Below, piece by piece: positions 17,252 through 34,172 of a stretch of DNA of 34,172 bases (its first letter is position 1; each line of letters begins with the position of its first letter). This DNA is from Burkholderiaceae bacterium. Its GTDB lineage: Bacteria; Pseudomonadota; Gammaproteobacteria; Burkholderiales; Burkholderiaceae. The notes beneath the pieces are model-generated. The model did no database searches and was not told the origin of the DNA. It worked only from the letters and a program-made list of their open reading frames with translations. A program made the position numbers and the translations under genes. The stretch spans positions 1 through 34,172 of the forward strand of contig CANBPJ010000003.1 in NCBI GenBank assembly GCA_947371415.1. Direction: 5' to 3'.

Positions 17252-18025
17252 GTGAGTAAATCTGTTGTCCCTGAACATACTTACGAGGCAGACTTAAGAC
17301 TTCTTCAAATTGAATTGGTCAAACTCCAGCGTCACACGATTCAAAAGGGTAAACGGCTGCTAGTTATCTTGGAAGGCAGGGATACCGCCGGTAAAGACGG
17401 TTGCATTAAAAGCATTACTGAGAATTTAAGCCCACGTGATAGCAGAATCGTTGCACTCAACAAACCCTCCCCGCGCGAGGAAGGCGAATGGTACTTCCAA
17501 AGATACATTGCCGAACTACCCGCAGCCGGTGAATTCGTTTTATTCAACCGGAGTTGGTACAACCGTGCCGGCGTCGAAAAGGTCATGGGATTTTGCACCG
17601 ATGAGCAATATAAGCAGTTTATGGCGACTGTCAATGAGTTTGAATCCTTGCTGGTTGCATCTGACATTCAGCTGATCAAGTACTACCTCGATATCACCAA
17701 AGAAGAGCAAGCAATTCGATTAAAAGACCGAGCCAAGGATCCATTAAAGCAATGGAAAATTAGCCCCATTGATCAAAAAGCTCAGAAGATGTGGAATGAA
17801 TACTCGGTTGCTCGGGACAAAATGCTCAAGCACACCAGCTCCACACCGGCACCCTGGAAGGTGATTAGCGCAAATGATAAAAAAATGGCGCATCTTAACC
17901 TGATTGCTGATTTGCTATCACGAGTTAACTACCCGGACAAAGACAAGAAGATCTTAAAGATAGATCCGAAGATTGTGCTGACTTGGCCAGCAAACTCTAA
18001 AAAGCTGCCAAAGCTTTCTAAATAA
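17252..18025 (+). CDS. ppk2: PPK2-family polyphosphate kinase, short form
   Basis: Transfers phosphate between polyphosphate and nucleotides; a 257-residue single-domain enzyme. The Walker A motif is GRDTAGKDG (42-50). The Walker B region reads LFNRSWYNRAGVE, with Asn99 where most family members, including the second copy in this window, have Asp. The lid segment (KDRAKDPLKQWKISP) is intact, so the enzyme is probably active. Asn at this site may shift preference between nucleoside mono- and diphosphates; I recall this from structural work but cannot confirm it here. The start is GTG at 17252 with AAGGA six bases upstream. It is coupled to the histone-like gene and ends one base before the convergent EF-hand gene. 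Confidence 0.93.
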   Translation: MSKSVVPEHTYEADLRLLQIELVKLQRHTIQKGKRLLVILEGRDTAGKDGCIKSITENLSPRDSRIVALNKPSPREEGEWYFQRYIAELPAAGEFVLFNRSWYNRAGVEKVMGFCTDEQYKQFMATVNEFESLLVASDIQLIKYYLDITKEEQAIRLKDRAKDPLKQWKISPIDQKAQKMWNEYSVARDKMLKHTSSTPAPWKVISANDKKMAHLNLIADLLSRVNYPDKDKKILKIDPKIVLTWPANSKKLPKLSK

Positions 18026-26559: not shown

Positions 26560-27128
26560 GCGCTCTGACGTGGACGGTAAAGATAAATAGCTATCGGAGC
26601 CATGATTAGCAGAACTATAGGTAAAGATAGTTTTGCAATACTCATTAACAAGAAGGTGACCACAATAATCAACAGCGACTTTAGATGGCGCCAATTATCT
26701 TCACCGATTCGGTAGGTTATTGCTGCCAGTAGACCACTAGCCGCCGCTGCAATACCAATCAAAATCAGATTTACCAGAGGATGATTCGAGGCGCTGGCAT
26801 AAAGGATCCCCATACCCAATACAAATAGACTGCCCGGCAAAATTAAACCAATGCTTGCAATAAAGGCTCCCGGGGCACCGCGCAGATGATCTCCAGATAG
26901 GACGGCCATATTGACTGAATTGAGGCCAGGCATTGTTTGGCTAATCGCCAGATAGGCCATGAATTCATCCGGTGACAGCCACTTGCGTTTTTCTACCAAG
27001 AGGATGCGTTCATAGGCAATAATCCCGCCGCCAAAGCTGATGGCGCCAATCAGTAAAAACTGAATAAATAGATCGCCCAGTTTGGGGGGGTCAGCCTTGG
27101 AAATGGAAATATCAGCAGCTAGAGTCAC
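26556..27128 (-). CDS. chrA: CHR-family transporter, half-size subunit 1
   Basis: 190 residues, the N-terminal-type half: FLLIGAISFGGGIIAYERILLVEKRKW followed by AISQTMPGLNSVNMA. The PG motif and the glycine triplet are conserved. The start is GTG at 27128, overlapping the stop of the CYTH-like gene by four bases (GTGA), and the stop overlaps the second half by four bases (ATGA). The three genes are therefore translationally coupled. Membership in a polyphosphate/lipid operon raises the chance that this pair moves something other than chromate. Confidence 0.87.
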   Translation of the reverse strand: MTLAADISISKADPPKLGDLFIQFLLIGAISFGGGIIAYERILLVEKRKWLSPDEFMAYLAISQTMPGLNSVNMAVLSGDHLRGAPGAFIASIGLILPGSLFVLGMGILYASASNHPLVNLILIGIAAAASGLLAAITYRIGEDNWRHLKSLLIIVVTFLLMSIAKLSLPIVLLIMAPIAIYLYRPRQSA

Positions 27129-27952
27129 TCTGGCTTTCCATAAATTAAAGCTGTTTTAGTGCTACCGATCTCCAGCCAGTCAGCCAGCTCAATTTGAAGC
27201 TTTTTAAAGAATTTATCGGCTCGCTTATGTGCTTTTGCTTGTGCGCGATTTTGATCATTCACTCGATAGGAAAATGCCAGCTCGCCCACAATTGGATCAC
27301 CAACACTTTTCATCCAAATTGCAATATCGCAATGCGCTTGCACTCCATCCCCAAACACCAAATTACCAATTGGTAGGCATGCCTCGAGAATTTTGTTGGT
27401 ACTCCCACCCACAATGCGCAGCGGCAGTTTTTTATCAATGGGTAGATGGACTAGGCCAGGGAAAAACTTGCCGACACTATTGAGGCTTCGATCAAATAGA
27501 TTATCCAAAGGCACGGCATCTAGAATGGCATTGTTTGAATAGATTGATCGCTTGGTTCCGAGGGTGTCGCCACGCAATATCTCCTCTTTTAAGCGCAACC
27601 TTGATTTAATCTTTTTATTGGGGCTTGGGTCAAATTGAGAAGACTCCGAAAGATCACTCGCACGGCATTTTAGGGTGACCTCACACCAATCATCTACCCA
27701 AACATTCTGGCGAGATTCACGAACGCGCAAGATGATGTTGTTACGACGAAAATCCTCTCCAGGCGTATCGTAAAAATAAATATTACGAAGGCCGGTAGTT
27801 GCATTATCTAAATGGAAAAAATCCACCTTACTCTTTTTGCAGAACTTGAGAATCTGATCGCTTAAAGCAGTAATTCTGCTGCGACGATCCAAGCCTTTTG
27901 GCTTGATGAGGAGCTTGAACTCTCGATTGGTAATAGACTCATGTAGCTTCAT
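27125..27952 (-). CDS. Putative CYTH/triphosphate-tunnel-like protein
   Basis: 275 residues, no signal or membrane segment. The N-terminal half has the outline of a CYTH domain: an N-x-E-x-K strand at 9-13 (family form E-x-E-x-K), YFYDTP at 59-64, NNIILRVRES at 71-80 and EVTLK at 91-95. GELAFSYR (223-230) could be a late tunnel strand. CYTH proteins bind triphosphate, polyphosphate or similar ligands with metal, as in adenylate cyclase CyaB, thiamine triphosphatase and VTC4. Position between a PPK2 gene (49 bases upstream) and CHR genes (overlapping) supports a polyphosphate link. The first Glu of the signature is Asn, and the C-terminal half is unfamiliar, so catalysis is uncertain. Confidence 0.6.
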   Translation of the reverse strand: MKLHESITNREFKLLIKPKGLDRRSRITALSDQILKFCKKSKVDFFHLDNATTGLRNIYFYDTPGEDFRRNNIILRVRESRQNVWVDDWCEVTLKCRASDLSESSQFDPSPNKKIKSRLRLKEEILRGDTLGTKRSIYSNNAILDAVPLDNLFDRSLNSVGKFFPGLVHLPIDKKLPLRIVGGSTNKILEACLPIGNLVFGDGVQAHCDIAIWMKSVGDPIVGELAFSYRVNDQNRAQAKAHKRADKFFKKLQIELADWLEIGSTKTALIYGKPE

Positions 27953-28001: not shown

Positions 28002-28907
28002 TTAGTACACCTCAGGTACGTACATTTCAGGAGGCACTGGGCCTCGCAAGTAATCTGGATTATGTACGCGGGCAGGCAAGGTAATTTCTGGATGATCAAT
28101 TTCTTTATAGGGAATTTGATCTAGCAAATGAGAGATGCAATTGAGGCGCGCCTTTTTCTTATCATTGGCTGCCACTACCCACCATGGCGCCTCAGGAATG
28201 TTGGTGCGATCCAACATAGTCTCTTTTGCCTTGGTATAAGCCTCCCAGTGGCGACGAGCATCCAGATCCATTGGGCTTAATTTCCACTGCTTCAGCGGAT
28301 CATGGATTCGCATCATGAAGCGGTTGTATTGCTCGTCATCTGAAATCGAGAACCAATACTTAATCAAGATGATGCCAGATCGAATAATCATGCGCTCAAA
28401 TTCTGGGACCGTCCGCAAAAACTCTTCATACTCGGCATCAGTACAGAAACCCATGACTTTTTCTACGCCAGCACGGTTATACCAACTGCGGTCAAACAGC
28501 ACAATTTCACCACCAGCAGGTAAATTGGATATGTAGCGCTGAAAATACCACTGAGTCTTTTCCCGCTCACTTGGGGCTGTCAATGCTACGACTTTACAAA
28601 CACGGGGGTTAAGTCGCTGCGTAATCCGCTTGATTGCACCACCCTTACCCGCAGAATCGCGACCTTCGAATAAAACAGCAACTTTGAGCTTATTCTCTAC
28701 AACCCAGTCCTGAAGCTTAACTAACTCGCCCTGTAAGCGAAAAAGCTCCTTGAAATAGACTTGGCGCGGGATAACAGAACCGCTACCACCATCCGGGGAA
28801 AGGCGGTCATCATCAAGCTCCATTTCGAGCTCTTCGTCCATGCTATCTAAGATTTCTTCTTGAGCACGCTGATACCACTCAGCCATCTCTTTGTGTTTTG
28901 ACGTCAT
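28002..28907 (-). CDS. ppk2: PPK2-family polyphosphate kinase, long form
   Basis: 301 residues: an acidic N-terminal extension (about 1-50, with EELEMELDDD), then the PPK2 core. Walker A is GRDSAGKGG (82-90), Walker B is LFDRSWYNRAGVE with Asp139, and the lid is MRIHDPLKQWKLSP. It converts polyphosphate plus nucleoside diphosphate to triphosphate, or the reverse. The start at 28907 overlaps the acyltransferase stop as ATGA and has GGGGAAG upstream; the frame runs on to 28943 but that start is less likely. It differs from the copy at 17252 in the Walker B residue and in length, so the two probably divide nucleotide substrates or direction. Confidence 0.93.
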   Translation of the reverse strand: MTSKHKEMAEWYQRAQEEILDSMDEELEMELDDDRLSPDGGSGSVIPRQVYFKELFRLQGELVKLQDWVVENKLKVAVLFEGRDSAGKGGAIKRITQRLNPRVCKVVALTAPSEREKTQWYFQRYISNLPAGGEIVLFDRSWYNRAGVEKVMGFCTDAEYEEFLRTVPEFERMIIRSGIILIKYWFSISDDEQYNRFMMRIHDPLKQWKLSPMDLDARRHWEAYTKAKETMLDRTNIPEAPWWVVAANDKKKARLNCISHLLDQIPYKEIDHPEITLPARVHNPDYLRGPVPPEMYVPEVY

Positions 28908-29749
28908 TTCTTCCCCTGAGGCGTTACTAGCTTTGTATCCCAAGGATATGACACTTTTGTTACGGATGCCTTTTCAAGGCTTTTTGAGATCGATTCCTGG
29001 CTGTAATTTGCCAATTGCTTGCGATCCGCATTTGGCAAGAGGTCATCTGAATAAGCTGGAAAGAGCCTAATATGCGCCACCAAAGATCGATTTTTGATGA
29101 CCCTGGACATCGACTCCAATAAGCCCATATCTCCAATAAATGCTGGGGATTCGCTCCTCAAACCAGTGACTTTTGAGAGATATTGAAGGGCGAGCGGAAA
29201 AACTGGCACATTTGCGGCAATCGCGGATTCAAACAGATTGGGCTTAAACGGCAAGACAGAATCACCAATTGTTGAGGTTCCCTCGGGGAAAATACAGATA
29301 GATTCTGTTTTTAGCACTTCCGCCATCCGACCAACCACTTGCCTTGCCTGTCGGGCACTGTCCCTACGGATAAATACGGTGCCTAGTTGTTTGGCCATCC
29401 ACCCAAATATCGGCCAACCCTCTACTTCAGACTTCGCTACAAAACGAATTGGCTTAAATGCATTAATAACATGAATATCCAGCCACGATATATGGTTGGA
29501 GGCGATCAAATGCGGGGTATTACCCAGTAAAACAGCATCTTGAACGACAAGCTCAATATTGAATATTTTTAGAAGGCGTTTTGACCAAGCCTGAATTTTT
29601 CGATCTTTATTCCTGCGATTCAGAAATGGAAAAACAAAAGCTAGCGTACAAACACCGCAAATAACATGAACCCAGATTTGGCACCATACCCAGATACGCA
29701 GGAGCCTTGGCGTCTCTACTACATCGAGGTCGGAAGAAAGTATTTTCAT
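28904..29749 (-). CDS. PlsC-family acyltransferase (1-acylglycerol-3-phosphate or OlsA-type)
   Basis: 281 residues. An N-terminal membrane helix (about 17-42) is followed by the acyltransferase domain with N85-H86-x4-D91 (NHISWLD), a VFIRRD segment at about 125-130 and FPEGT (154-158). It acylates a lysolipid from acyl-ACP or acyl-CoA. Two roles fit: phosphatidic acid synthesis (PlsC) or the second step of ornithine-lipid synthesis (OlsA). An OlsB-like gene only 2.4 kb away favours considering OlsA. The ATG at 29749 is chosen over a TTG at 29755. It heads the five-gene minus-strand operon, and its promoter must lie in or beside the Pho-box region. Confidence 0.88.
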   Translation of the reverse strand: MKILSSDLDVVETPRLLRIWVWCQIWVHVICGVCTLAFVFPFLNRRNKDRKIQAWSKRLLKIFNIELVVQDAVLLGNTPHLIASNHISWLDIHVINAFKPIRFVAKSEVEGWPIFGWMAKQLGTVFIRRDSARQARQVVGRMAEVLKTESICIFPEGTSTIGDSVLPFKPNLFESAIAANVPVFPLALQYLSKVTGLRSESPAFIGDMGLLESMSRVIKNRSLVAHIRLFPAYSDDLLPNADRKQLANYSQESISKSLEKASVTKVSYPWDTKLVTPQGKK

Positions 29750-29770
29750 AAACAAGCATCAATATAAATC

Positions 29771-29799
29771 ATGTCATCAAAATGTCGTAAAACTGTCAT
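29771..29799 (+). promoter_or_regulatory. Pho box (PhoB-binding repeats)
   Basis: Three direct seven-base repeats at an exact 11-base period: ATGTCAT (29771-29777), ATGTCGT (29782-29788) and CTGTCAT (29793-29799), with A-rich four-base spacers CAAA and AAAA. This is the known Pho-box layout (CTGTCAT repeats, A/T-rich spacers) bound by phosphorylated PhoB in low phosphate. A fourth, poor unit (ATTACAT, 29804-29810) keeps the phase. The plus-strand orientation points to the plcP-like gene at 29835. A minus-strand TATATT (29766-29761), four bases away, could be a -10 for the divergent acyltransferase operon, leaving almost no leader. Confidence 0.75.
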
Positions 29800-29834
29800 G
29801 AGGATTACATGATGGGCGGGCTTAATGCTTACTC

Positions 29835-30644
29835 ATGATGCATTACAGAGCTATTTGGATTTCAGATATACACCTAGGAACATCAGGGTGTCAGGCTAAC
29901 TACCTCCTCGATTTCTTAAAACACAATGAGGCGGATCAGTTTTATTTGGTTGGCGATATTATCGACGGCTGGCGCCTAAAACAATCTTTTTATTGGCCTC
30001 AAGCTCACAATGACGTAGTTCAAAAATTATTGCGTAAGGCACGAAAAGGTACCGAGGTTATTTATATCCCCGGCAATCATGACGAGGCAGCGCGGCAGTA
30101 TTTTGGCATGTCATTTGGCGACATTAAAGTTCAAGAAGAGGTGATCCACACAACCTTGGATGGCCGCAAGCTTTGGGTCACCCATGGCGATCTATTTGAC
30201 GGTGTCATGCAATACGCAAAATGGCTAGCTTACGTTGGTGATACGCTGTACTCCTTCATTCTTTACATCAACCGCTATTTCAATATGTTGCGGATCAAGA
30301 TGGGCCTGCAGTACTGGTCTCTCTCTCAATATCTCAAGCACCAAGTAAAAAATGCAGTGAGTTATATCGCAGACTTTGAGCACATCATGGCTAGAGAAGC
30401 GCGCTTGCGTAATTGTGATGGCGTGGTCTGCGGCCATATTCACAAAGCTGAAATCCGCGAGATTGATGGTCTGCTCTACTGCAATGATGGTGATTGGGTA
30501 GAAAGTCTTTCTGCACTAGTCGAGACAACCGAAGGCGAACTCAAAATTATTTACTGGACACATATCAAAGGTGATCCAGTTCAAGCTCCTGAAATTACTC
30601 TCCAACCCGCTGTTGAAGCACTTTTTAAAGAGGCTGCCTTATGA
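29835..30644 (+). CDS. plcP: PlcP-like metallophosphoesterase (phospholipase C type)
   Basis: 269 residues, a calcineurin-like phosphoesterase of the LpxH/PlcP group. Metal ligands: D11 and H13 (SDIHLG), GDIIDGW (40-46), GNHDE (80-84), THGD (116-119) and GHIHK (200-204). By family alone it would be called UDP-2,3-diacylglucosamine hydrolase. However, it overlaps a glycosyltransferase by four bases and sits behind a Pho box, the arrangement of the phosphate-starvation phospholipase PlcP with Agt, which cuts membrane phospholipids to diacylglycerol. I therefore prefer PlcP. Start codons at 29835 and 29838 are both possible; neither has a strong ribosome binding site. Confidence 0.8.
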   Translation: MMHYRAIWISDIHLGTSGCQANYLLDFLKHNEADQFYLVGDIIDGWRLKQSFYWPQAHNDVVQKLLRKARKGTEVIYIPGNHDEAARQYFGMSFGDIKVQEEVIHTTLDGRKLWVTHGDLFDGVMQYAKWLAYVGDTLYSFILYINRYFNMLRIKMGLQYWSLSQYLKHQVKNAVSYIADFEHIMAREARLRNCDGVVCGHIHKAEIREIDGLLYCNDGDWVESLSALVETTEGELKIIYWTHIKGDPVQAPEITLQPAVEALFKEAAL

Positions 30645-31669
30645 AAATTATGATCATCACTGATGCATGGGATCCGCAAGTTAATGGCGTGGTGAGAACA
30701 CTAAAGCAAACGCGCGCCGAACTCATTGCCATGGGTCATGAGGTTGAAATGATTACGCCAAATGGCTTTAAATCTATTCCATGCCCGACTTATCCCGATA
30801 TTGCTCTCTCTTTATTTCCCGGAAAAGAAGTTGCCCGCAAAATCAAAGCATTCGCACCGGATGCGATGCATATCGCCACAGAGGGCCCTTTAGGCTTATC
30901 GGCGCGCGCTTATGCTGTAAAAAACAATCTACCCTTCTCTACCGCCTACCACACGCGCTTTCCTGAGTATGTCAAAGCACGTACCGGCATTCCACTTGCC
31001 ATTACTTATGCTTTCATCCGCTGGTTTCATGGGCAGTCTATGGCAGTCATGGCACCCACCATTGTCGTTAAGGATGATCTAGAAAAATATGGGCTTAATA
31101 ATGTGGTCTTGTGGTCTAGAGGTGTTGATCTCGATATCTTCAAAATACAAGAATCCAAAGCACTCAATACTGCACACCCAATCTTTTTGTATGTCGGTCG
31201 CGTTGCCGTGGAAAAGAATATCAATGCCTTTTTAGAAATTGATCTGCCAGGCTCAAAATGGGTGGTTGGCGATGGTCCAGCAATGGCTGGTATTAAAGAA
31301 AAATACCCTGACATTAACTATCTGGGTGTGCTGCAACAACATGAGCTGGCTAAGGTATATGCCGCAGCCGATGTGTTTGTATTTCCCAGCAAAACAGATA
31401 CGTTTGGACTGGTATTGCTGGAGGCTATGGCCTGCGGTACGCCAGTAGCAGCCTATCCAGTAACTGGCCCAATTGATGTTCTAGGCAACTCCCCAGCGGG
31501 AGCTATGAATGAGGATTTGCGGGAGGCTTGCCTGCAGGCTCTCAAGATTCCGCGTGAAGTTGCTAGAGCTCATGCCGAGAAATTCTCTTGGAGAGCTGCT
31601 TCCGAGCAATTTGCAAATCACCTTAAGCCAGTGCCATCAACAGAAGTTCATGTTAGCGCTCTCGCATAA
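30641..31669 (+). CDS. GT4 glycosyltransferase, Agt/SqdX-like
   Basis: 342 residues, GT-B fold. The N-terminal acceptor domain begins MIITDAWDPQVNGVVRTL. The donor domain starts near FLYVGRV (182-188) with EK at 191-192. The donor-phosphate motif is D253-x7-E261 (KTDTFGLVLLEAMACG), as in SqdX-, MgtA- and Agt-type lipid glycosyltransferases. The predicted reaction is sugar transfer from a nucleotide sugar to diacylglycerol, making a phosphorus-free glycolipid at the inner membrane. Its start overlaps the plcP-like stop (ATGA), so enzyme pair and product hand-over are coupled. The sugar (hexose or uronic acid) cannot be read from sequence. Confidence 0.85.
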   Translation: MKIMIITDAWDPQVNGVVRTLKQTRAELIAMGHEVEMITPNGFKSIPCPTYPDIALSLFPGKEVARKIKAFAPDAMHIATEGPLGLSARAYAVKNNLPFSTAYHTRFPEYVKARTGIPLAITYAFIRWFHGQSMAVMAPTIVVKDDLEKYGLNNVVLWSRGVDLDIFKIQESKALNTAHPIFLYVGRVAVEKNINAFLEIDLPGSKWVVGDGPAMAGIKEKYPDINYLGVLQQHELAKVYAAADVFVFPSKTDTFGLVLLEAMACGTPVAAYPVTGPIDVLGNSPAGAMNEDLREACLQALKIPREVARAHAEKFSWRAASEQFANHLKPVPSTEVHVSALA

Positions 31670-31678
31670 GGCAGCATT

Positions 31679-32083
31679 TTGACCACCCCCTACAACATCA
31701 ATCAGAATCCCCACAAAGGCAATCGTGGTCTCACCAGAGCTTGGCATGCCGCCAAGAACTCTTGGTGTGGCATTGTTTACGCATTCAAAGAAGAAAGTGC
31801 TTTTAGGCAAGAGCTCACACTACTGATATTACTCACCCCTCTTGCACTTTTTCTGCCGATCAGCCCACTCGAAAAGTGCGCTCTGATTGCCTCATTAATC
31901 ATGGTGTTAGTTGTGGAGTTACTTAACTCAAGTGTTGAGGCAGCCATCGACCGAATCTCATTTGATCATCACGATCTATCAAAGAGGGCAAAAGACTTCG
32001 GATCGGCTGCAGTAATGTTAGCCCTGATGATTGCCGCATTGCTTTGGATCGCGATTTGCGCTCCCCTTGTCATGTCTTCGTAA
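31679..32083 (+). CDS. dgkA: Diacylglycerol kinase
   Basis: 134 residues, the small integral-membrane DgkA family: an amphipathic N-terminus, FKEESAFRQEL, three helices, VELLNSSVEAAIDRI and KRAKDFGSAAVML. It phosphorylates diacylglycerol to phosphatidic acid with ATP. The start is TTG at 31679, seven bases after AAGG, which overlaps the previous stop; no usable ATG follows. Directly behind PlcP and Agt it would return surplus diacylglycerol to the phospholipid pool, balancing the remodelling reactions. Confidence 0.93.
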   Translation: MTTPYNINQNPHKGNRGLTRAWHAAKNSWCGIVYAFKEESAFRQELTLLILLTPLALFLPISPLEKCALIASLIMVLVVELLNSSVEAAIDRISFDHHDLSKRAKDFGSAAVMLALMIAALLWIAICAPLVMSS

Positions 32084-32126
32084 CAAAATACTTATACGAT
32101 TTAAAGGTATATAAATAAGGATAACT

Positions 32127-33065
32127 ATGTCGGATATTCCAAACCCACTAGGCGCTTTTGATATCTTCAACTCACGATTTGAAGCCAAGCCAAAAAAGGC
32201 AAAAAAGAGTAAAGCTGAAACTATTAAGAAACTTTTTTCTAAGAAAATAGCCAAGAAATTATTTGGGAAAAAGTTTGCCACTCAAGCGCGTACAGAGCTG
32301 GAGATCCAGGAACTAGTAGTGCCTGAAAAGGCAATTGCCAAGCCAAAACGCCCTGCGTTTCAAATTACTTGGGCCAGCAATGCCAGCGAGATTAAAGAAG
32401 CTCAGCGCCTACGTTACAAAGTTTTTGCAGAAGAGATGGGTGCAAACCTTCCTGCTAATCCTGAAAACCTCGATATTGATGAGTTTGATGCCTATTGCGA
32501 TCACCTGTTGATTCGCGACCAAGAATCCCTCAAGGTAGTCGGCACCTATCGCGTACTACCCCCACATAAAGCCTTAGAAATTGGCCGCCTGTATTCTGAT
32601 TCTGAGTTTGACTTGTCACGCTTAAATCATTTGCGCCCAAAGATGGTGGAGCTCGGTAGATCTTGCGTACATGCAGACTACCGCTCTGGCGCCGTCATCA
32701 TGGCACTATGGAGCGGTCTTGCCCAATACATGCAAAAACACGATTATGAAATCATGCTGGGTTGTGCAAGCATCCCAATGGCAGATGGCGGTCACTATGC
32801 GGCCAGCCTCTTTAACTCCCTCAGAAATGAACAAATGGCGCCGGTAGAGAACCATGCATTTCCTCGTCTGCCACTCCCACTGGATCGTCTTAACGGTGGT
32901 TTAGAGGTCGACCCACCGCCGCTGATTAAGGGTTACTTGAAGTTAGGCGCCAAGATTTGTAGTGCCCCAGCATGGGATCCCGATTTCAACACTGCTGACG
33001 TTTTAACAATGCTGCGTCTCTCAGAAATAAATCCGCGTTATGCCAAGCATTTTTTAGGTCTGTAG
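32127..33065 (+). CDS. OlsB-like N-acyltransferase (ornithine lipid synthesis)
   Basis: 312 residues. Residues 80-312 are the acyl-ACP-dependent GNAT-type domain of OlsB and related N-acyl amino-acid synthases: AQRLRYKVFAEEMGA, DEFDAYCDHLLIRD, VVGTYRVL and KMVELGRSCVHADYR. It would attach a 3-hydroxy fatty acid to ornithine, giving lyso-ornithine lipid. The first 80 residues are an unusual Lys/Ala-rich stretch (KPKKAKKSK, KKIAKKLFGKKF) likely to bind the membrane surface or other anions. AAGGA is six bases before the ATG, with TATATAAAT just upstream as a possible -10. It follows dgkA by 43 bases. Confidence 0.82.
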   Translation: MSDIPNPLGAFDIFNSRFEAKPKKAKKSKAETIKKLFSKKIAKKLFGKKFATQARTELEIQELVVPEKAIAKPKRPAFQITWASNASEIKEAQRLRYKVFAEEMGANLPANPENLDIDEFDAYCDHLLIRDQESLKVVGTYRVLPPHKALEIGRLYSDSEFDLSRLNHLRPKMVELGRSCVHADYRSGAVIMALWSGLAQYMQKHDYEIMLGCASIPMADGGHYAASLFNSLRNEQMAPVENHAFPRLPLPLDRLNGGLEVDPPPLIKGYLKLGAKICSAPAWDPDFNTADVLTMLRLSEINPRYAKHFLGL

Positions 33066-33098: not shown

Positions 33099-34172
33099 TT
33101 ACTTCAAACTCACTTTATAAGGCCGGCCGATACGTTCCCATTCGGCCGCTTCTTTTTGCAAGCTAAACTCTGTCAAAGGATGCTCTCTTGCCCAGTCTTT
33201 TGAAAGGCTGACTAGATAAGACCCATCATGCTCCGATACTTTAACCTTTGGTAGGTTGGCATCACTTCTACCGCGGCATAGGGCCTGAGCCAAACGCAAG
33301 CAAAACAACATACGCCAATCCTTAAAGCTCGGATTATTGGCTAGCTTGCCAAGTTTTCCAGTATGGCCAATTAATAATGCGGCTAGTCTTGCTTGATCAT
33401 TTTTTGAGAATCCAGGCATATCTGCATTGCCGGCAATATAAGCAGAGTGCTTGTGATAACCATTATGAGAAATCGACAAGCCAATCTCATGCAAATTGGC
33501 TGCCCACTGAAGCAATGCAATGTTGTCTGATCTACTTTCTACATCAGGCTTAGGCAGTTGCGCTAAAAATTCAGCAGCATGCTGGCCCACCCGCTTTGCT
33601 TGCTCTCGATCCACTGCATAACGTTGCATGAATTGCTCAACGGTCACAAAGCGCATATCGTCATGCTGAGAACGCCCCAAAAGGTCATATAGAACACCGA
33701 CACGCAATGCAGCATCAGTCACCTCCATACTCTCGATACCCAACTCATCAAAGACGGCAATCATGATGGCAAGGCCACCTGGCCAAACAGATCTACGGTC
33801 GTCTTTTAGGCCAAGCAACTCCACCTGGCTGACATTCTCGTATTTCAAAAGATGTTTTTTCATGGCCTTTAAGCCATCGCGCGTAATCAACCCACTAGAA
33901 CTATTGACGCGACCCATAGTCAGACCTTCATTCAGCTGACCGTTGAAGTTATTCTCCGAAATGAGGTCTGCTAAGGCACGTGCCGTGCCAGAAGATCCGA
34001 CCACCTGCCTCCAACCGCTCTTTAAATAAGCGCCTGAAATAACTTGGATCTCGCGACGTGCTGCTAACTCAGCCTCTTTAAAAGCATGGGCATCAATATT
34101 GCCCTTGGGGAAAAAACGAAGGCTATGAGAAACACAACCAATATAGAGGCTTTCCATCAGCTTGGGCTCATA
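33099..34172 (-). CDS. ppx: Exopolyphosphatase (Ppx/GppA family), N-terminus cut by window edge
   Basis: 357 residues are visible; the frame stays open through the right edge (reading YEPKL before the first internal Met), so roughly the first 150 residues lie outside. The visible part begins near the end of the first actin-like lobe (ESLYIGCVSHSLRFF). It continues through GSSGTARALADLI, SGLITRDGL and RRSVWPGGLAIM, then a helical HD-type C-terminal domain (LHEIGLSISHNGYHKHSAYIAGNADMPG is spread over about 220-248). The enzyme releases phosphate from polyphosphate ends, or pppGpp if GppA-like. It is convergent with the OlsB-like gene. Its position fits the phosphate theme of this end of the window. 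Confidence 0.92.
   Translation of the reverse strand, partial: YEPKLMESLYIGCVSHSLRFFPKGNIDAHAFKEAELAARREIQVISGAYLKSGWRQVVGSSGTARALADLISENNFNGQLNEGLTMGRVNSSSGLITRDGLKAMKKHLLKYENVSQVELLGLKDDRRSVWPGGLAIMIAVFDELGIESMEVTDAALRVGVLYDLLGRSQHDDMRFVTVEQFMQRYAVDREQAKRVGQHAAEFLAQLPKPDVESRSDNIALLQWAANLHEIGLSISHNGYHKHSAYIAGNADMPGFSKNDQARLAALLIGHTGKLGKLANNPSFKDWRMLFCLRLAQALCRGRSDANLPKVKVSEHDGSYLVSLSKDWAREHPLTEFSLQKEAAEWERIGRPYKVSLK

Follow-up and report, generated by a model that had tools for sequence, protein, structure and literature searches.

A Predicted PhoB Promoter Upstream of plcP and Two Further Putative Pho Boxes in a Lipid-Remodeling Gene Cluster of Freshwater Betaproteobacteria

Organization of the Gene Cluster

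The window analyzed here, a stretch of 34,172 nucleotides from a Burkholderiaceae genome, contains two divergently oriented gene units. The plus-strand unit begins with plcP (29835–30644), encoding a calcineurin-like phosphoesterase (LpxH/PlcP-like), followed by an agt-like gene for a GT4 glycosyltransferase (30641–31669), the diacylglycerol kinase gene dgkA (31679–32083) and, as the last gene, an olsB-like gene for an L-ornithine N-acyltransferase (32127–33065). The start of plcP is supported by relatives reading ATGGAG or ATGACG at the beginning of the gene. A ppx-like gene (33099–34157) closes the window on the olsB side. On the minus strand, an olsA-like gene encoding a lyso-ornithine lipid O-acyltransferase of the PlsC family (28904–29749) diverges from plcP, and its TGA stop codon overlaps the ATG of ppk2 (28002–28907, minus strand), which encodes polyphosphate kinase 2 with an NCBIfam match above the cut-off. 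The start of ppk2 was re-assigned to the ATG at 28907 (MTSKHKE...), which is conserved in relatives.

A metallophosphoesterase gene followed by a GT4 glycosyltransferase gene was present in all loci, and the names PlcP and Agt are given by family likeness. The best NCBIfam matches of the two acyltransferases were OlsB (179.6 bits, cut-off 350) and OlsA (125.3 bits, cut-off 300), and the genes are called olsB-like and olsA-like (olsB and olsA for short) because these scores fall below the equivalog cut-offs. Based on these best matches, the cluster appears to pair PlcP/Agt-type glycolipid remodeling with the ornithine-lipid pathway, amounting to a program for phosphorus-free lipids, together with polyphosphate metabolism. 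An earlier note on this DNA had extended the minus-strand unit under shared control to a CYTH gene and to chr (chromate-transporter) genes. The gene at 27125–27952 (minus strand) is a tentative CYTH candidate that matches the Pfam family weakly (E = 0.0025, below the gathering score), and its product had no match in the PDB; the chr genes showed no sign of membership.

A Four-Unit Array Upstream of plcP

A four-unit array of the PhoB type (29771–29810, plus strand) is located upstream of plcP. Its first three units, ATGTCAT at 29771, ATGTCGT at 29782 and CTGTCAT at 29793, follow an exact 11-nt period, as had been claimed. The four-base spacers had been described as A-rich, which applies to CAAA and AAAA but not to the third spacer, GAGG. 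A fourth unit (ATTACAT, 29804–29810), which became evident from the relatives, extends the array beyond the three units originally recognized. The -10-like hexamer of the predicted plcP promoter, CTTAAT (29821–29826, plus strand), is located 10 nt after unit 4; it lacks a strong consensus and is found at the equivalent position in 46 of 70 loci. Since the 10-nt spacing matches that of Escherichia coli phoA and Polynucleobacter pstS, the array reads as a putative PhoB promoter for plcP-agt-dgkA-olsB. Only 8 nt separate the end of CTTAAT from the plcP ATG, here and in most of the genus, so that a leader of ~0–4 nt, and thus a near-leaderless plcP mRNA, is predicted.

The triple pattern of units occurs once in the window at zero mismatches, and at up to three mismatches it is expected 0.09 times per window based on dinucleotide shuffles. 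Two-unit matches at up to two mismatches are uninformative alone (6 observed, 6.2 in shuffles). An independent matrix of 18 positions was built from 23 distinct boxes at pstS genes of the genus, and the plcP array was not part of the training set. The pstS promoter of the present genome itself consists of TTGTCAC and GGGTCAC separated by AAAA, with TATCGT 10 nt downstream. Scanning with a PhoB matrix had been suggested in the earlier note, and the pstS matrix ranked the positions 29782 (19.8 bits) and 29771 (14.0 bits), both within the plcP array, first and second in the window among ~68,000 positions. In 30 shuffled windows, single scores reached 18.3 bits at most, and the sum over three steps was no higher than 10.6 bits, compared with 39.9 bits at the plcP array. 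The E. coli phoA box scores 20.5 bits with the same matrix.

The regulatory genes of the system were identified within the genome: PhoB (319 bits), PhoR (412 bits) and PstS (371 bits) pass their family cut-offs and are all encoded on one contig (C66). Across the 1.6-Mb assembly, a degenerate form of the box at no more than one mismatch has only six matches, among them pstS (the sole exact match), ppk2 and two places in the plcP array; as a count this is no enrichment (6 matches versus 5 for the reversed control). The matches on contigs C28 (near peptidase-like and ThiF-like frames) and C76 (near a umuC-like frame) have seemingly non-phosphate surroundings, with the translations judged by eye, and were rejected as probable chance matches for that reason.

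Conservation of the Array among Relatives

Comparison of the gap across Polynucleobacter genomes, as the earlier note had proposed, revealed strong conservation of the plcP array. In an unbiased scan of 48 loci of relatives (3.7 kb, both strands), only three conserved clusters of matches were found, at plcP, olsB and ppk2, and none of the other 30-bp bins contained matches in more than two loci. A second set comprised 80 loci from species genomes, of which many carry the name Polynucleobacter; the two sets share some genomes and their counts are therefore not independent. Matches of at least 10 bits were identified in this second set upstream of plcP in 91%, ppk2 in 90% (of 68 relatives), olsB in 51% (of 77) and olsA in 4% (of 77), with 0–8% for a reversed-matrix control. 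No such boxes (0%) were found before agt, dgkA, ppx, the CYTH-like gene, the chr genes and tonB.

The alignment of 47 distinct sequences anchored at the plcP ATG resulted in the consensus GTCAt.AAAcTG.CttaaAA.TGTCAtga.g.tT.CAta.t...t.GGCTTAAT.c....TCATG (capitals, at least 90%), and its information recurs at a lag of 11 nt (permutation p = 0.013). The gap is AT-rich and two-unit matches are no commoner than in shuffled sequence, which is what a chance repeat would predict. However, chance would produce the exact triple only very rarely, and many columns are invariant among the 47 sequences; conservation thus already rules out this extremely improbable explanation.

Beyond the genus, tandem units followed by 10 nt and NNNAAT were found upstream of plcP in each of the 20 loci that represent other genera of the family, where the array is located ~200–350 nt upstream of the aligned plcP start, unlike the near-leaderless layout of the genus. 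In many relatives (e.g., G075:C1, G005:C4 and G062:C1), pstS is encoded on the strand opposite to plcP at a distance of ~10–19 kb, and the plcP cluster can for this reason be viewed as part of a phosphate neighborhood.

The tandem half-sites of OmpR-family regulators look alike, and the PhoB model has six further, weaker matches elsewhere in the genome, so the array might serve a different member of the family that recognizes TGTCA-type half-sites. This is very unlikely given that the matrix was derived from pstS promoters and also matches E. coli phoA, that the genes downstream of the array are phosphate-starvation genes, and that the geometry of the array is kept in other genera of the family. 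The designation of the array as a PhoB operator in the earlier note is retained as a Pho-box reading, which is strongly supported by the pstS matrix, the conservation within genus and family, the 10-nt spacing and the presence of PhoB, PhoR and PstS genes; binding of PhoB itself is predicted.

Two Further Boxes Upstream of ppk2 and olsB

Elsewhere in the window only isolated half-sites had been seen previously. This proved wrong: weaker but conserved two-unit boxes are present at 28948–28965 (minus strand) and 32067–32084 (plus strand). The first, CCGTAACAAAAGTGTCAT, is located upstream of ppk2 and has a -10-like TACAAA (28932–28937, minus strand) 10 nt downstream. In relatives, the box mostly reads (A/T)TGTAATAAAAGTGTCAT, and the hexamers TACAAA, TAAAAA or TATAAA follow exactly 10 nt downstream. 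The box of the present genome has a modest score of 11.9 bits, approximately the mean of the shuffled maxima, and appears worn (CCGTAAC... compared with (A/T)TGTAAT in relatives). The olsA-like frame of the present genome extends ~23 codons beyond the stop of most close relatives and crosses the ppk2 box; in most relatives its stop falls immediately upstream of the box or at its edge.

The second box, TTGTCATGTCTTCGTAAC, overlaps the 3' end of dgkA and is followed after 10 nt by a -10-like TACGAT (32095–32100, plus strand), of which variants are found in relatives. Together they form a predicted olsB promoter that would be internal to the plcP operon. In the present genome this box is degenerate (7.3 bits, below the chance maxima). 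The prediction of both boxes in this genome thus rests on their conservation in relatives, and the 10-nt spacing to the -10 element is common to plcP, ppk2, olsB, the pstS genes of the genus and E. coli phoA.

Direction of the plcP Array

The array occupies the gap between plcP and olsA, and it had been proposed that one operator controls nine genes in both directions. PhoB bound to the array would then also activate or repress the divergent olsA. Such shared control would be sensible since OlsA and OlsB belong to a single pathway, and in the present genome only 4 nt separate the array from the candidate -10 element of olsA (TATATT, 29761–29766, minus strand, AATATAAA element). In addition, unit 2 reads TGAC rather than TGTC in 47 of 70 relatives (TGTC in the present genome), which makes units 1 and 2 partly palindromic; many relatives (L004–L048) carry the inverted repeat AAGTCA-TCAAAC-TGACTT (AAGTCA-N6-TGACTT) across these two units. 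This partial palindrome could accommodate a second orientation.

The geometry of the gap argues against this proposal. Relative to plcP, the array stays at -64 to -25 in almost every relative whose promoter could be aligned, whereas the distance between the starts of plcP and olsA varies, mostly within 75–104 nt among relatives. The TATATT element keeps a roughly constant distance to the olsA start (10–11 nt in most loci), while species differ by up to 20 nt in how far it lies from the Pho array; relative to plcP it is located at 73 nt in 30 of the 41 scored loci and at 82–93 nt in the other 11. On the minus strand, the best box inside the gap scores 4.5 bits in the present genome and has no consistent place in relatives, and the fraction of relatives with a match upstream of olsA is low. 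A conserved box combined with a -10 element in the geometry required for the divergent gene was thus not found, and ppk2, farther along the olsA strand, has its own Pho box, as does olsB on the opposite strand. Because no conserved olsA box is present and the olsA -10 candidate moves independently of the array, a single operator shared by plcP and olsA is unlikely, and the bidirectional reading was rejected on geometry and matrix evidence. The array is most probably a one-directional PhoB promoter of plcP-agt-dgkA(-olsB), with parallel boxes for olsB and ppk2 and with olsA standing apart.

Proposed Mechanism and Relation to Known Systems

Upon exhaustion of phosphate, phosphorylated PhoB would occupy the tandem 11-bp units at plcP and recruit RNA polymerase to the -10 element 10 nt downstream without the need for a -35 element, and transcription would begin almost at the plcP start codon. 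In parallel, PhoB may act at the internal box before olsB and at the opposite-strand box before ppk2. The predicted metabolic outcome of this phosphate response is that PlcP would cut phospholipids to diacylglycerol, that Agt would supply glycolipids, and OlsB followed by OlsA ornithine lipids, as replacements, and that PPK2 would shift the exchange of phosphate between polyphosphate and nucleotides. The olsA gene, encoding the second step of ornithine-lipid synthesis, most likely relies on a sigma-70-type promoter of its own, with no direct activation by PhoB.

The plcP array resembles the E. coli phoA and pstS promoters in its tandem CTGTCAT-like units, the 11-bp period, the 10 nt to the -10 element (checked for phoA) and the dispensability of a recognizable -35 element. 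It differs from them in its four units of mixed quality, with unit 2 often being TGAC, and in the predicted transcription start within ~4 nt of the start codon. A plcP-agt pair behind a predicted Pho box was described in marine Roseobacter and SAR11 (PMC4796936) and in Pseudomonas aeruginosa (PA3219-PA3218; PMC8528852). In contrast to these pairs, dgkA and olsB are joined to plcP-agt here, an olsA-like gene and ppk2 adjoin divergently, and the hosts are freshwater Betaproteobacteria. Predicted Pho boxes before olsB, in connection with low-phosphate ornithine-lipid synthesis, are known from Burkholderia sensu lato (PMC7814305) and from Agrobacterium (PMC3972451), whereas the box described here is internal to the plcP operon and overlaps the end of dgkA. 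Other bacteria are already known to place plcP-agt and olsB under PhoB, and the predicted ppk2 box and the near-leaderless plcP are the newer and less expected details. Among the papers searched, none mentions a Pho box together with Polynucleobacter, and a search limited to titles found none dealing with ppk2 as a direct PhoB target next to lipid genes.

Polynucleobacter is a genus of abundant freshwater bacterioplankton, and the arrangement predicts that, under phosphate scarcity, its members swap phospholipids for glycolipids and ornithine lipids, with ppk2 added as a predicted direct target of PhoB beside the lipid genes. There is about an even chance that the cluster constitutes a compact phosphate island, with three boxes within 3.2 kb through which PhoB would separately switch on phospholipid recycling, ornithine-lipid synthesis and PPK2-dependent polyphosphate exchange. 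If so, lipid remodeling and the use of polyphosphate would be part of one program in these streamlined freshwater bacteria. A second, putative PPK2-like protein is encoded at 17252–18025 (plus strand) of the window and shares, as judged by eye, motifs including LEGRDTAGK and RSWYNRAGVEKVMGFCTD with the product of the gene at 28002–28907.
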